Position numbers and translations under genes: made by a program. Under the pieces are notes generated by a model. The model saw nothing but the letters and a program-made list of their open reading frames with translations. It had not been told where the DNA came from and made no database searches. From a bacterium (GTDB lineage Bacteria > Patescibacteriota > Minisyncoccia > Phycocordibacterales > UBA9973), in contig JAKBMK010000002.1 of the NCBI GenBank assembly GCA_021831595.1, positions 1 to 42,720 on the forward strand: 42,720 nt of DNA, in the 5' to 3' direction. Below, one piece after another: positions 16,703 to 30,253 of this stretch. Numbering within the stretch: position 1 is the first letter of the stretch; each line of letters opens with the position of its first letter.

Positions 16703-16742
16703 AAATAAATACTATTTTACAACGGTAAAATAGTATTTATTT
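16703..16742 (+). terminator. Terminator after prfA
   Basis: An 18-bp AT-rich stem (AAATAAATACTATTTTAC and its complement) with an AACG loop. It ends the native operon just before the efflux-gene promoter. Confidence 0.75.
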
Positions 16743-16762
16743 ATTTAAAATACTGAAATCTA

Positions 16763-16791
16763 TTTACAGCAAAACATATGTGTGTTACTAT
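16763..16791 (+). promoter_or_regulatory. Promoter of the efflux-gene leader
   Basis: TTTACA (16763-16768), a 17-bp spacer and TACTAT (16786-16791). The leader ORF's ATG begins 6 nt after the -10 box. Confidence 0.7.
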
Positions 16792-16797
16792 TGAAAT

Positions 16798-16932
16798 ATG
16801 AGCAAAAGATGCCACAAACTAAATATAAATAACTGGACCATTTCACCAATGGCCGGATTCACCGTATCTTACGAATACGCAAACAACTTTATATTTAGCC
16901 GTGACATTTCTAATTCACCCAAAAACTATTAA
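16798..16932 (+). CDS. 44-codon leader peptide of the MFS efflux gene
   Basis: A short frame opened by ATG at 16798 and closed by TAA. It begins MSKRCHKLNINNW and ends SRDISNSPKNY. I do not recognise the peptide. Its last third overlaps TATTTAGCCG (16892-16901), which can pair with CGGCTAAATA (16967-16976) in the terminator region, so ribosome position on the ORF could decide between terminator and antiterminator. This is the usual arrangement of drug-inducible resistance leaders in Gram-positive bacteria. Confidence 0.6.
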   Translation: MSKRCHKLNINNWTISPMAGFTVSYEYANNFIFSRDISNSPKNY

Positions 16933-17001
16933 ACAAACCAAATTGTAAAAAGTCTTAAAAATATCTCGGCTAAATAGAAAGCGAGATATTTTTTATTTAG
17001 C
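16892..17001 (+). promoter_or_regulatory. Transcription attenuator of the MFS gene
   Basis: The terminator stem is AAATATCTCG (16959-16968) with CGAGATATTT (16982-16991), followed by T. Its 3-prime-loop bases and the end of its 5' arm, CGGCTAAATA (16967-16976), are complementary to TATTTAGCCG upstream (16892-16901), forming an antiterminator. A second TATTTAGC (16994-17001) can pair with GCTAAATA as well. Three mutually exclusive hairpins are thus possible before the gene. Confidence 0.7.
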
Positions 17002-17033
17002 AAAACAAAATAGTTTTTTAACAATTTAATATT

Positions 17034-17039
17034 AGGAGG
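17034..17039 (+). promoter_or_regulatory. Strong Shine-Dalgarno site
   Basis: AGGAGG lies 8 nt before the MFS start codon. It is the only clear consensus ribosome-binding site I found in the window; neighbours rely on leaderless or unmarked starts. Confidence 0.8.
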
Positions 17040-17047
17040 TAAAAATC

Positions 17048-18226
17048 ATGAAAGAAAAAGATGTGTTACGCAATGTTAAAATGTACAAATTGTACAAAAC
17101 ATTTGGTGAACCACTTATGTGGGGACCGATTCTGATTTCTTGTCTTATGAATTTAGGACATATGAAATTATCAGAAATCTATTTTATGGAATCTATCGTT
17201 TTGGTTGGAACAATTTTTTTACAAATTCCTACCGGAGCGTTAGCTGACATCATTGGCAGAAAAAAGACAATTTTAATTGGCTCATTTTTTCTTTCCCTTA
17301 GTATAATCTTATTTTCTACTATCTATTCGCCATTAAGCGCTTGGATAGCAAATATCGTATGGATGATCGGATTCTCTCTCTGTTCGGGAGCAGACTCAGC
17401 ATTTCTATATGATTCCTTGAGATTAATAGGGAAGGAAACAGAGTACAAAAAAATTGAAGGTGATTCTGTGGGCAATCGATTCTTGATTACAGCTATTTGT
17501 TCAATTTTTGTTGGATATTTAGCAGAATATTATATTCGATTGCCGATACTTTTGTCTATTCCAGGGGTTGTTTTTTCTACTCTTATTGTGTTCTTTTTCA
17601 AAGAACCATCAAGAAATGAAAAATATACGCCCGGTAAACAAATAGACATGGCTAAAATTAGTTTACTTTTTGTATCAAACCACAAAGAGATAAAATGGAT
17701 TATATTTTTTGTAACGACGATTGGAGTTACTTCAAAAGTTTGGTTCTTTACATATAATCCGTATTTCGAATTGGTTGGACTTGATTTAAAGTATTATGGA
17801 ATTGTATTTTTTGCTTTAAATATTGTTGCTTGGTTTTTTAGTAAAAATGTAAGCAACATTAGTAATAAAGTAAAAGATATTAATATTATTGTAATATTGG
17901 TGTTACTAATAGCAGTTCCAATATTAATAATGAGCTCTGTCCCTTCTGTTTTTTGTGTGGGAATGGTATTTTTCCAAAATGTTGCCCGTGGTTTTATGGG
18001 TCCATTCTTTGGAGAATTTATGAACAGACATCTAAACGGAGAAAACAGAGCAACAGTCCTTTCGATTCAATCTGCCGTTTCTGGCTCAGCTCAATTCATC
18101 GCTCTTGGTGCATTTGGCTTTCTGCTGGAAAACAATGGCCTCCTATTCTGCCTTCAAATATTAGGAATAATAGTCCTTGTATTAGGGGGTTTAGCAATAT
18201 TTAGATACAAAAAAGTATTTAAGTAA
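17048..18226 (+). CDS. MFS efflux transporter, probably acquired
   Basis: A 392-aa major facilitator with about 12 hydrophobic segments. Motif A between TM2 and TM3 is clear (GALADIIGRKKT), and a central cytoplasmic loop near 185-205 (EPSRNEKYTPGKQ) splits two six-helix halves. It is probably a proton-driven exporter; the substrate is unknown, but the leader and attenuator resemble those of inducible antibiotic-efflux genes. Signs of transfer are its own promoter, a consensus AGGAGG site unlike its neighbours, a long attenuated leader and terminators on both sides. A Firmicutes donor is my guess. It ends with TAA. Confidence 0.88.
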   Translation: MKEKDVLRNVKMYKLYKTFGEPLMWGPILISCLMNLGHMKLSEIYFMESIVLVGTIFLQIPTGALADIIGRKKTILIGSFFLSLSIILFSTIYSPLSAWIANIVWMIGFSLCSGADSAFLYDSLRLIGKETEYKKIEGDSVGNRFLITAICSIFVGYLAEYYIRLPILLSIPGVVFSTLIVFFFKEPSRNEKYTPGKQIDMAKISLLFVSNHKEIKWIIFFVTTIGVTSKVWFFTYNPYFELVGLDLKYYGIVFFALNIVAWFFSKNVSNISNKVKDINIIVILVLLIAVPILIMSSVPSVFCVGMVFFQNVARGFMGPFFGEFMNRHLNGENRATVLSIQSAVSGSAQFIALGAFGFLLENNGLLFCLQILGIIVLVLGGLAIFRYKKVFK

Positions 18227-18283: not shown

Positions 18284-18319
18284 ACCAGATAGAGGCTTAA
18301 CCTCTATCTGGGAATTTTT
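18284..18319. terminator. Second hairpin, near-copy of the gap/dapF terminator
   Basis: CCAGATAGAGG and CCTCTATCTGG pair perfectly around CTTAA, then GAATTTTT. It nearly duplicates the 6370-6407 hairpin, with compensating changes in the stem. Confidence 0.75.
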
Positions 18320-21587: not shown

Positions 21588-23090
21588 ATGAGCAAAAATC
21601 ACATTGTAGAAAATTTAAGAAAACAGATAGAAAAATTCCAGGGAGACCTAAAAGTTGAAAAGGTAGGGCATGTCGTTGAAATCTTCGATGGTATTGCTCG
21701 TGTTTCTGGCCTTTCAGACTTGAAAGCATCAGAAATGGTGACTTTCGCAAGTGGTGCAACGGGAGTTGCTCTAAACCTCGAAGAAGATACCGTTGGTATT
21801 ATCGTTCTTGGTGACTTTTCAAATATTCATGAAGGTGAAGAAGTAAAAGCTACAGGGAACATTCTTTCAGTGCCAGTATCAGATGCTCAAATCGGCCGCG
21901 TATTAAATGCACTAGGTGAACCAATAGATGGTAAAGGTGCAATAAAGACAGACAAGAGAAATCCTATCGAGAAAGTTGCGCCTGGAGTTATTACACGTCT
22001 TTCAGTTGACCAGCCAGTGCAAACAGGTATCAAAGCTATCGACGCTCTTATTCCTATCGGTCGCGGACAACGCGAACTTATCATCGGTGATCGTCAGACA
22101 GGAAAGACAGCTATTGCTATCGACACAATATTAAACCAAAAGGGTCAGAATATGATCTGTGTCTATGTCTCAATCGGTCAGAAAGATTCTAAATTAAGAA
22201 AATTACAAACTCGTCTAGAAGAGGGTGGAGCAATGGATTACACTATTATGGTTTCTGCTGGAGCATCAGAACCAGCATCTCTTGCTTATATCGCACCTTA
22301 TACCGGAGTTTCTATTGCTGAATACTTTATGGATCAAGGTAAGGATGTCTTGATAATTTATGATGATCTTTCCAAGCACGCCGTAGCTTACCGTGAAATC
22401 TCACTCTTGCTTCGCCGTCCACCAGGTCGTGAAGCTTACCCTGGAGATGTCTTTTACTTGCACTCAAGACTTCTAGAAAGAGCTTGCCGAAGAAATAAAG
22501 AATACGGAGGTGGATCAATCACTGCTCTTCCTATCATTGAAACTCAGGCTGGAGACGTATCTGCATACATTCCTACAAACGTCATTTCTATTACTGATGG
22601 ACAGATCTTCCTAGAAACAGACCTTTTCTACAAGGGTATTCGTCCTGCTGTAAACGTCGGACTTTCTGTATCACGTGTGGGAGCTACCGCTCAGATTAAA
22701 GCTATGAAGAAAGTGGCTGGTAAGATCAAGCTTGAACTCGCTCAGTATCGTGAGCTTGAAGCTTTCGCTCAATTCGGCTCTGACCTCGATGAGGGTACAA
22801 AAAAACAGCTAGAAAGAGGAAAGAGATCTGTGGAAGTTCTAAAACAGCCTCAATACTCTCCAGTAGGAACTATCGACCAAGTTGTTATTTTCTATGCTTT
22901 GATTAATGGCTATATTGACGGTGTAGCTATAGATAAAGTAAAAGAATTTGAAACAGGCCTCGCAGAATATGCATCAAGAAATGCTAAAACTTTCTATAAA
23001 GAAGTCGCAGAGACTCGTATGTGGACAGACGCAGGAGAAGAAGAACTCAAGAAGGTTATTGCTGATTTCGTTTCAAGTTTTAATAAATAA
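21588..23090 (+). CDS. atpA: ATP synthase subunit alpha
   Basis: Non-catalytic nucleotide-binding subunit of F1, 500 aa, normal length. The P-loop GDRQTGKT is at 167-174. The Walker B strand reads [12 protein letters not shown], and the family signature [21 protein letters not shown] is complete. It starts 1 nt after atpH and has no Shine-Dalgarno site. Confidence 0.98.
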
Positions 23091-24063: not shown

Positions 24064-25440
<1,377 letters not shown>

Positions 25441-28938: not shown

Positions 28939-29242
28939 TATTATTGTCCTTTATATTACCCACAGGAATTGCCTGTGTAATTTCCAAAAAATAGAAACGT
29001 ATTTTAAAAAAATAATTTCATCAATAATTAATACAAAATATTTATAAAAATTTGTCAAATTTATAACACCTAAAAATAAAACTTCATTCCACATTCATTT
29101 TTATCTTTTGAAAAGTATTGACTTAGTCTTCTCTAAGTTAGATAATCTAGGTATACTAGTTCTTGTTTCTCTGTCTCCTTTTATTAATTTATTAACTGTA
29201 TGGCTCTCGACCTTAAACAGAAACGAGACCAATCATAATTTT
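28912..29242. other. 331-bp gene-free stretch before the cysteine-repeat protein
   Basis: It holds, in order: the terminator; a direct repeat of TGTCCTTTATATTA (28930-28943 and 28945-28958); a hairpin CACAGG/CCTGTG around AATTG (28960-28975); a very AT-rich stretch; a promoter at 29118-29146; and a leader of about 90 nt with a 12-codon frame, MALDLKQKRDQS, at 29200-29238. Confidence 0.6.
29118..29146 (+). promoter_or_regulatory. Promoter of the cysteine-repeat protein
   Basis: TTGACT (29118-29123), a 17-bp spacer and GATAAT (29141-29146). It places the transcript start near 29153 and rules out the in-frame TTG at 29108 as the start codon. Confidence 0.65.
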
Positions 29243-30253
29243 ATGTTTACACAAATGAGAACTTCTCGTCTCAAATTTTTCGAGATGATATTATTCGTTA
29301 CCGTTTTCTTAATCAGTGGTCTTCTTACTAGTGCAAATATAGTACTAGCTTCCGAGACTTCATCTTCTAGTACTACTATAACTGTATTAGTATCATGTAC
29401 TCCTGGGTCTGGCGATGTGTATGATATGCGTACCGGAGAGAGATGCTCTAACGCACCAGCATTAATTGGATGCAAGGATGGATCAGGAGATTTGTACGAT
29501 GTGAATACAGGAAAGCGATGCTTGAATACTCCGCTTGCAGCATGTAAAGATGGATCGGGTGATCTATATGATGTAAATACTGGTAAAAGATGTACCAATA
29601 CACCTCTCGCAGCTTGTATGCCAGGATCTGGGGATAAATATGACATGAACACAGGTAAAGTGTGTACAAACGACACATCTGGAGTAAAAGCTTGTGGTCT
29701 ATCTAGTGATATATACAATATATATACAGGCAAACTTTGTGCAGACAAAAGTGCTGTTGTTGGTGTATTAAATCCCACAGAAAAAATTACGGATAAAGAA
29801 CTTACTCTTTTAACTCCAAACGCTCAATTGAGTGGGAGTATGACAGGTAGTGATGAAGGAACATCTGGCAAAATAGCTGAAGCATCGGAAGGTCTTTCTG
29901 GAAGACAGATGTTGGCAAAGAGTTTGTCGGCTAGTGTAGCAAAAGCCGGAAGCATACTAAAAGGACCTATGTCTATCTGGATTATTATACTTATAATAGC
30001 CATTCTTTTAGGCGGAAGTTACGCAATATATGAATTACTTAAGAAGAAAGAAAAGGTAGTAGCAATAAAACAAAACCCAACAAACGTAAAGCCTGTAACC
30101 CCTGTCACTCCTTTAACAAATACACCAAATAGCGCAACAACTCCTGAAGTTAAGACTCAAAGTGCTCCTTCTGCTACACCCGTAACTCCTACACCTGCTC
30201 CTGCCCAGCAACAGATGAACATTCCTAACACTTCTAATCCTCAAGCTAAATAA
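29243..30253 (+). CDS. Surface protein with five Cys-TG-Cys repeats and one membrane anchor
   Basis: I do not recognise a named family. From the ATG at 29243 the protein is 336 aa; a start at 29255 is also possible. A signal peptide ends near IVLASE. Five repeats follow (29396-29740), each C-x2-GSGD-x-YD-x2-TG-x2-C or close to it, 24-26 residues apart; each Cys pair could form one disulphide loop. A membrane helix comes later (SIWIIILIIAILLGGSYAIYEL), then a Lys-rich stop and a Pro/Thr/Gln-rich tail. The same Cys motif occurs once in the giant protein downstream (CTPGAKFSTTTGKNC). The two may belong to one surface structure. Confidence 0.8.
   Translation: MFTQMRTSRLKFFEMILFVTVFLISGLLTSANIVLASETSSSSTTITVLVSCTPGSGDVYDMRTGERCSNAPALIGCKDGSGDLYDVNTGKRCLNTPLAACKDGSGDLYDVNTGKRCTNTPLAACMPGSGDKYDMNTGKVCTNDTSGVKACGLSSDIYNIYTGKLCADKSAVVGVLNPTEKITDKELTLLTPNAQLSGSMTGSDEGTSGKIAEASEGLSGRQMLAKSLSASVAKAGSILKGPMSIWIIILIIAILLGGSYAIYELLKKKEKVVAIKQNPTNVKPVTPVTPLTNTPNSATTPEVKTQSAPSATPVTPTPAPAQQQMNIPNTSNPQAK

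Follow-up and report, generated by a model that had tools for sequence, protein, structure and literature searches.

A leader that is probably a ribosome-mediated transcription attenuator precedes exporter and acetyltransferase genes in small-genome bacteria

The DNA analyzed here (42,720 nucleotides, called the window throughout) comes from a bacterial genome of 0.81 Mb that is 95% complete. The locus lies on the forward strand and begins with a promoter (16763-16791), recognized from the sequence and its relatives, in which the -35 element TTTACA (16763-16768) is separated by a 17-nt spacer from the TG-extended -10 element TACTAT (16786-16791), the TG sitting one base 5' of the hexamer. The promoter is followed by a leaderless leader ORF of 44 residues (MSKRCHKLNINNWTISPMAGFTVSYEYANNFIFSRDISNSPKNY, 16798-16932), and leader ORFs are also found in relatives. 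Segment 0 (CTAAATATAAA, 16819-16829), an anti-antiterminator arm, pairs with TTTATATTTAG (16889-16899) in segment 1 (TTTATATTTAGCCG, 16889-16902), which is the partner of either segment 0 or segment 2. Folding places a hairpin at 16833-16856 in the loop between segments 0 and 1; it is a weak candidate for a pause hairpin (mean z -1.45 versus mononucleotide shuffles). Segment 2 (CGGCTAAATA, 16967-16976) is the full complement of TATTTAGCCG (16892-16901). It overlaps the 5' arm and loop of an intrinsic terminator (16957-16994) and is the partner of segment 1, in an antiterminator, or of segment 4. The terminator core is a perfect 10-bp stem (16959-16968/16982-16991) that extends to 12 bp (16957-16968/16982-16993), with a T-run at 16989-16994. 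Directly 3' of the terminator lies segment 4 (TATTTAGC, 16994-17001), a complement of segment 2, and a little further 3' comes a boxA-like element (GTTTTTTAACAA, 17013-17024; GTTCTTTNAMAA in relatives). The Shine-Dalgarno sequence AGGAGG (17034-17039) and the gene of a 392-residue MFS transporter (17048-18226) follow, and a terminator search found a further terminator 3' of that gene (18285-18311). The promoter, the 44-codon ORF, the terminator stem, the complementarity of 16892 to 16967 and the segment at 16994 had been recorded in the initial annotation and were all recovered at the same positions. Segment 0, which completes the switch, and the boxA-like element at 17013-17024 are additions to it.

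Two other features of the window are recorded here. A long near-perfect inverted repeat, AATAAATACTATTTTAC-AACG-GTAAAATAGTATTTATT (16703-16744), lies between prfA and the leader promoter and is probably the prfA terminator. At 29108-30253 there is an ORF with tandem C-x-x-GSGD-x-YD-x-x-TG-x-x-C repeats and a hydrophobic segment.

Seven promoter-like sites were found in the window against 9.3 expected and thus the leader promoter taken alone is not above chance. It is credible because it is conserved in relatives. The leader ATG lies 6 nt 3' of the -10 box, and an unbiased promoter search found a spacing of 6-7 nt between the -10 element and the first ATG at 38 of 56 loci versus about one control locus. 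Shine-Dalgarno sequences were absent from 23 of the 24 window genes checked, and in many genes a hexamer resembling a -10 element precedes the start codon by about 6 nt. Judged from sequence, leaderless transcripts seem to be mostly the rule in the host genome, and the description of the genome as otherwise leaderless holds for the window. The MFS gene, which comes second on its transcript after the leader ORF, is the exception to the Shine-Dalgarno-less rule there. Its AGGAGG had been called the only one in the window, but the hexamer occurs eight times on both strands, which is below chance expectation; what stands is that only the copy at 17034-17039 lies at start-codon distance.

The pairings were assessed in leaders of related genomes. 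In the first eleven leaders, segments 1 and 2 were paired in 93% of cells versus 28-43% when slid, with 4 of 10 pairs changed on both sides, and segments 2 and 4 were paired in 91% of cells, with changes on both sides at 3 of 8 positions. Over 54 non-redundant leaders the covariation z-scores were 9.0 for 0:1, 13.9 for 1:2, and 12.1 for 2:4, and for each of these pairings a segment matched its own partner better than in all permutations, in 10 leaders as well as in 54. Control segment pairs were null or near null (z -2.7 to 1.9). Note that this test re-deals the segments among genomes and ignores phylogeny, but the phylogeny behind the control segments is identical. The initial annotation had named a lack of covariation of the 16892/16967 pairing as a refutation; the pairing covaries in homologues, and the proposed leader ORF, its terminator and the antiterminator that competes with it are supported. 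All but one of 200 dinucleotide shuffles of the 271-nt leader fold less well than the native sequence (z -3.15), and in the window RNA the energies were -10.8 kcal/mol for 0:1, -17.7 kcal/mol for 1:2, and -13.1 kcal/mol for the terminator (2:3). A pseudoknot between the terminator loop and segment 4 was considered improbable on steric grounds, the linker between the strands being too short. The RNA models also gave antisense matches, as the segment order is nearly palindromic.

With the first covariance model, built from eleven leaders, the leader was detected within the same order in 47 of 397 genomes, representing 40 of 179 genera, and a second model found it in nine genomes of other orders of the class. 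Within its own genus it is present in 4 of 24 genomes, and most positive genomes gave a single match. The locus is no one-off: the leader is widespread in the order. Most same-order relatives share a layout before the MFS gene: TTGACA or TTTACA, often a TG-extended -10 element, an ATG mostly 6-7 nt later, the leader ORF, five complementary segments, the boxA-like sequence, a Shine-Dalgarno sequence (in most) and the gene. Relatives also keep the intrinsic terminator that separates the promoter from the structural gene. No Rfam family matched the leader at the gathering score, and at a relaxed threshold only implausible sub-threshold matches to snoRNAs, miRNAs, and sRNAs appeared. Plasmid and viral collections contained no relative of the leader. 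Very probably the leader represents a real, conserved and apparently undescribed family of stalled-ribosome sensors.

The gene behind the leader varies. At 57 loci we found 28 MFS genes, 27 GNAT genes, one methyltransferase-like gene and one case with no obvious gene, most GNATs and the methyltransferase having been assigned by eye from sequence; the downstream gene is thus of exporter or acetyltransferase type at 55 of 57 loci. Of the GNATs, the three that were scanned contain PF13302, one is a pseudogene and one is placed after a short ORF. The leader-linked MFS proteins fall mostly into two clades, MFS-A, which includes the window protein, and MFS-B. In one genus, two genomes have closely similar leaders with an MFS gene behind one and a GNAT gene behind the other, and the similarity drops just 3' of the leader, indicating that the switch was kept while the controlled gene was exchanged. 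At L073 (G222:C14) a SAM-methyltransferase-like gene stands behind the leader as a third gene type, and at L054 (G244:C10) a good leader match has no MFS, GNAT or other recognizable gene directly downstream. In a genome of the same genus (L006/L084, G020) the attenuator lies at about -361 to -224 relative to a 37%-identity MFS gene, and a further, different hairpin array between the two perhaps makes these tandem attenuators.

The response of the RNA to a translating ribosome was modeled by masked folding, in which the 5' end of the RNA was hidden as if by a ribosome. The unmasked window RNA gave 14.6 expected pairs for 0:1 and 10.8 for the terminator. Masking to ORF nt 34 gave 12.9 expected pairs for 1:2 and reduced the terminator to 1.1, and masking past segment 1 restored the terminator to 10.8. 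Masking to nt 50 gave a mixed outcome (8.8 terminator pairs) and thus the prediction is imperfect. The same trend held on average across the family, with 24% of leaders giving the full three-state switch at equilibrium, a fraction that fell to 6% in chimeras having the 5' end or terminator swapped between genomes. If the model is right, the low fraction means that co-transcriptional order must matter.

We consider it likely that the leader is a ribosome-mediated transcription attenuator and that it responds to slow ribosome movement through the early leader, caused by a translation inhibitor, by switching on. RNA polymerase would start at or beside the leader ATG and the leader peptide would be made from a leaderless transcript during transcription. 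With no ribosome, or with a ribosome on the start codon, segment 0 would pair with segment 1, leaving segment 2 free to form the terminator (OFF). A fast ribosome would be beyond segment 1 before segment 2 emerges and the terminator would again form (OFF). A ribosome that slows or stalls at about codons 3-15, for which a translation inhibitor is the most likely cause, would cover segment 0 and expose segment 1, which would pair with segment 2 as the antiterminator and allow read-through into the MFS gene (ON). The MFS protein would then be translated from its own Shine-Dalgarno site. Translation of the leader, an antibiotic as the signal and protection against it by the MFS protein (a GNAT elsewhere) are inferences. 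Drug induction and a drug-export function are plausible.

The trp operon of E. coli has a ribosome-mediated attenuator of this type. Both leaders have an ORF, an anti-antiterminator (0:1), an antiterminator (1:2) and a terminator (2:3), and both are OFF without a ribosome or with a fast one and ON with a ribosome held early, states that in our case are predicted by masked folding. In contrast to trp, the present leader lacks a run of control codons, has a leaderless start, contains the additional segment 4 and boxA-like element, and precedes exporter or acetyltransferase genes. Most likely it uses the trp logic with the amino-acid codons replaced by inhibitor-slowed translation. Gram-positive resistance genes provide a second comparison, as transcription attenuators that respond to stalled ribosomes control ermK, mef-mel, bmrCD, and lmo0919 (Table 1, PMC5418344), and the tlrB attenuator is described as having a Shine-Dalgarno sequence ahead of the leader ORF and a nine-residue peptide that contains an RYR arrest motif (PMC6851288). 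These systems likewise place a leader with an intrinsic terminator before a resistance-type gene and have a competing structure or ribosome position that is favored by a slowed ribosome. The leader described here differs in being leaderless, longer (mostly 31-53 codons), and without a fixed arrest motif, and in that one leader type serves unrelated genes in different species and carries the extra segment and boxA-like element.

The MFS protein matched Pfam MFS_1 (E 3.6e-18) and its predicted structure (pLDDT 91) is of a DHA1-like fold, the nearest folds being VMAT2, LacY, NorA, LmrP, and MdfA, which makes export of a drug or an amine plausible. Its sequence is distantly similar to the tetracycline efflux proteins TetA(P) and Tet(40), over most of its length for TetA(P), but far below the cut-offs (57.1 bits against NCBIfam NF000043, TetA(P), which has a curated cut-off of 750). 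Its distribution is patchy. In its own genus a relative of at least 72% identity is present in 3 of 24 genomes, its own counted, and a fourth genome has one at 37%. Across the order, relatives at E 1e-60 were found in 13 of 397 genomes, and more distant groups of the phylum have relatives of 27-31% identity without the leader. A search of a collection of genome contigs returned only a same-genus relative. The gene had been thought likely to be imported, from Gram-positive bacteria. This is not supported: codon usage and GC3 are ordinary for the window, the near relatives found lie in the same order and class, and the plasmid and viral collections gave a single relative, from a plasmid, at 28% identity. 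Recent import was rejected, as codon use is typical. In the MFS tree, members of one host family are not always together and one member from another order lies inside the clade with moderate support, a pattern that speaks for genes having been exchanged and lost inside the group and not for an origin in Gram-positive bacteria.

The nature of the signal bears on the first alternative, in which the same attenuator responds to a non-antibiotic cue, either a small molecule or a general slowdown of translation (polyamines, starvation), and the MFS and GNAT proteins detoxify a metabolite. The GNATs scored 53.6 bits against spermidine N1-acetyltransferase, and have spermidine acetyltransferases among their nearest relatives (PDB matches included). 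The match of the MFS fold to VMAT-type amine transporters points the same way. Both the MFS proteins and the GNATs are of resistance-like families, with scores below the curated cut-offs. Against this, the best scores of the MFS-B proteins, which exceed those of MFS-A, are to tetracycline pumps, though far below the cut-offs. The peptide gives signs of both kinds. Residue 9 is Asn at 40 of 54 loci, which would fit a specific cue, but the codon is nearly always AAT and lies within segment 0, so RNA pairing accounts for most of the bias; pairing of this segment accounts only in part for the preferences at residues 5 (Y/C/H) and 7 (K/Q) seen in the same 54 loci. Composition by position showed no stretch in which a single amino acid is repeated, as happens in biosynthetic leaders, and amino-acid attenuation was rejected for this absence of control codons. 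The middle of the peptide is variable, indicating that there is no specific arrest motif pointing to a particular drug. Macrolide arrest motifs were considered, as the peptide may resemble ErmCL, and were likewise rejected because they are not conserved. We regard a non-antibiotic signal as possible, although rather unlikely, and favor inhibitor-slowed translation.

A boxA-like element matching at 10 or more of 12 positions is present in 76% of the 54 leaders versus 5% of shuffled tails; the consensus GTTCTTTNAMAA recurs across the family, with one mismatch (C to T) in the window copy. In rRNA operons, boxA functions in NusB-S10 antitermination. The family sequence GTTCTTTNAMAA fits the boxA consensus and NusB is encoded in the genome, where 139 nt separate a similar element, TTCTTTGAAAA (L031 303-313; G000:C16:16202-16212), from the 16S rRNA gene that follows it. 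Unlike the rRNA elements, the candidate lies in an mRNA after a terminator and beside segment 4 and a Shine-Dalgarno sequence. An anti-Rho role of boxA was considered and set aside: a Rho family search of this genome (95% complete) gave no match above the cut-off, and the sub-cut-off matches coincided with two ATP synthase genes in the window (21996-22670 and 24364-25221). Segment 4 follows the terminator in the transcript, so any action of it is limited to read-through RNA. A second layer may act in that RNA, in which segment 2 would re-pair with segment 4 beside boxA in a genome without detected Rho. Tentatively, the leader could be a modular leaderless ribosome-stall sensor used across a small-genome lineage with exchangeable protection genes, in which this 2:4/boxA layer couples attenuation to Nus-factor control.

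Nus-factor contact, as suggested by the boxA-like element, would also suit a leader RNA governed by a bound protein or RNA with an ORF that is not translated. Segment 1 is in a non-zero frame at 14 of 58 loci, indicating that RNA pairing rather than the C-terminal part of the peptide is conserved there. However, most loci have a leader ORF whose promoter is placed for a leaderless start, the distance from ATG to segment 1 is close to 90 nt at most of them, and no Rfam family matches at the gathering score; we consider this reading improbable. The segment 0 helix occupies about ORF nt 21-33 in most relatives. At L011/L042 (G395) the start codon and segment 0 region look deleted in comparison with the near relative L012, and segments 1 and 2, the terminator and boxA are still present. 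That the ORF encodes a functional small protein such as a toxin is very improbable: it is found at most loci, but its length ranges from about 20 to 62 residues, constraint is mainly in segments 0 and 1, frame changes across segment 1 are tolerated, and no Pfam or NCBIfam profile matched the peptide at E up to 1. An ordinary terminator with chance repeats in an AT-rich intergenic region is scarcely tenable. The numbers of promoters and terminators, taken by themselves, are close to those expected, but covariation, wide conservation, one match in most positive genomes and a conserved place before the same gene types contradict this reading.

Few studies have dealt with how genes are regulated in these small-genome bacteria, most of them uncultured. 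The open literature we searched contained no account of attenuators in them, which is weak evidence of absence, and no description of the leader family, although one may exist elsewhere. A study of their resistance-like genes is silent on leaders, attenuation, and inducibility (PMC8651080). If the attenuator reading is correct, a conserved switch that senses ribosome progress would mean that these bacteria respond to translation stress, and would help to single out those of their many divergent resistance-like genes that stress really induces. The leader could serve as a handle for scanning genomes for new protection genes, and would provide a naturally occurring example in which to test attenuation that relies on leaderless translation.
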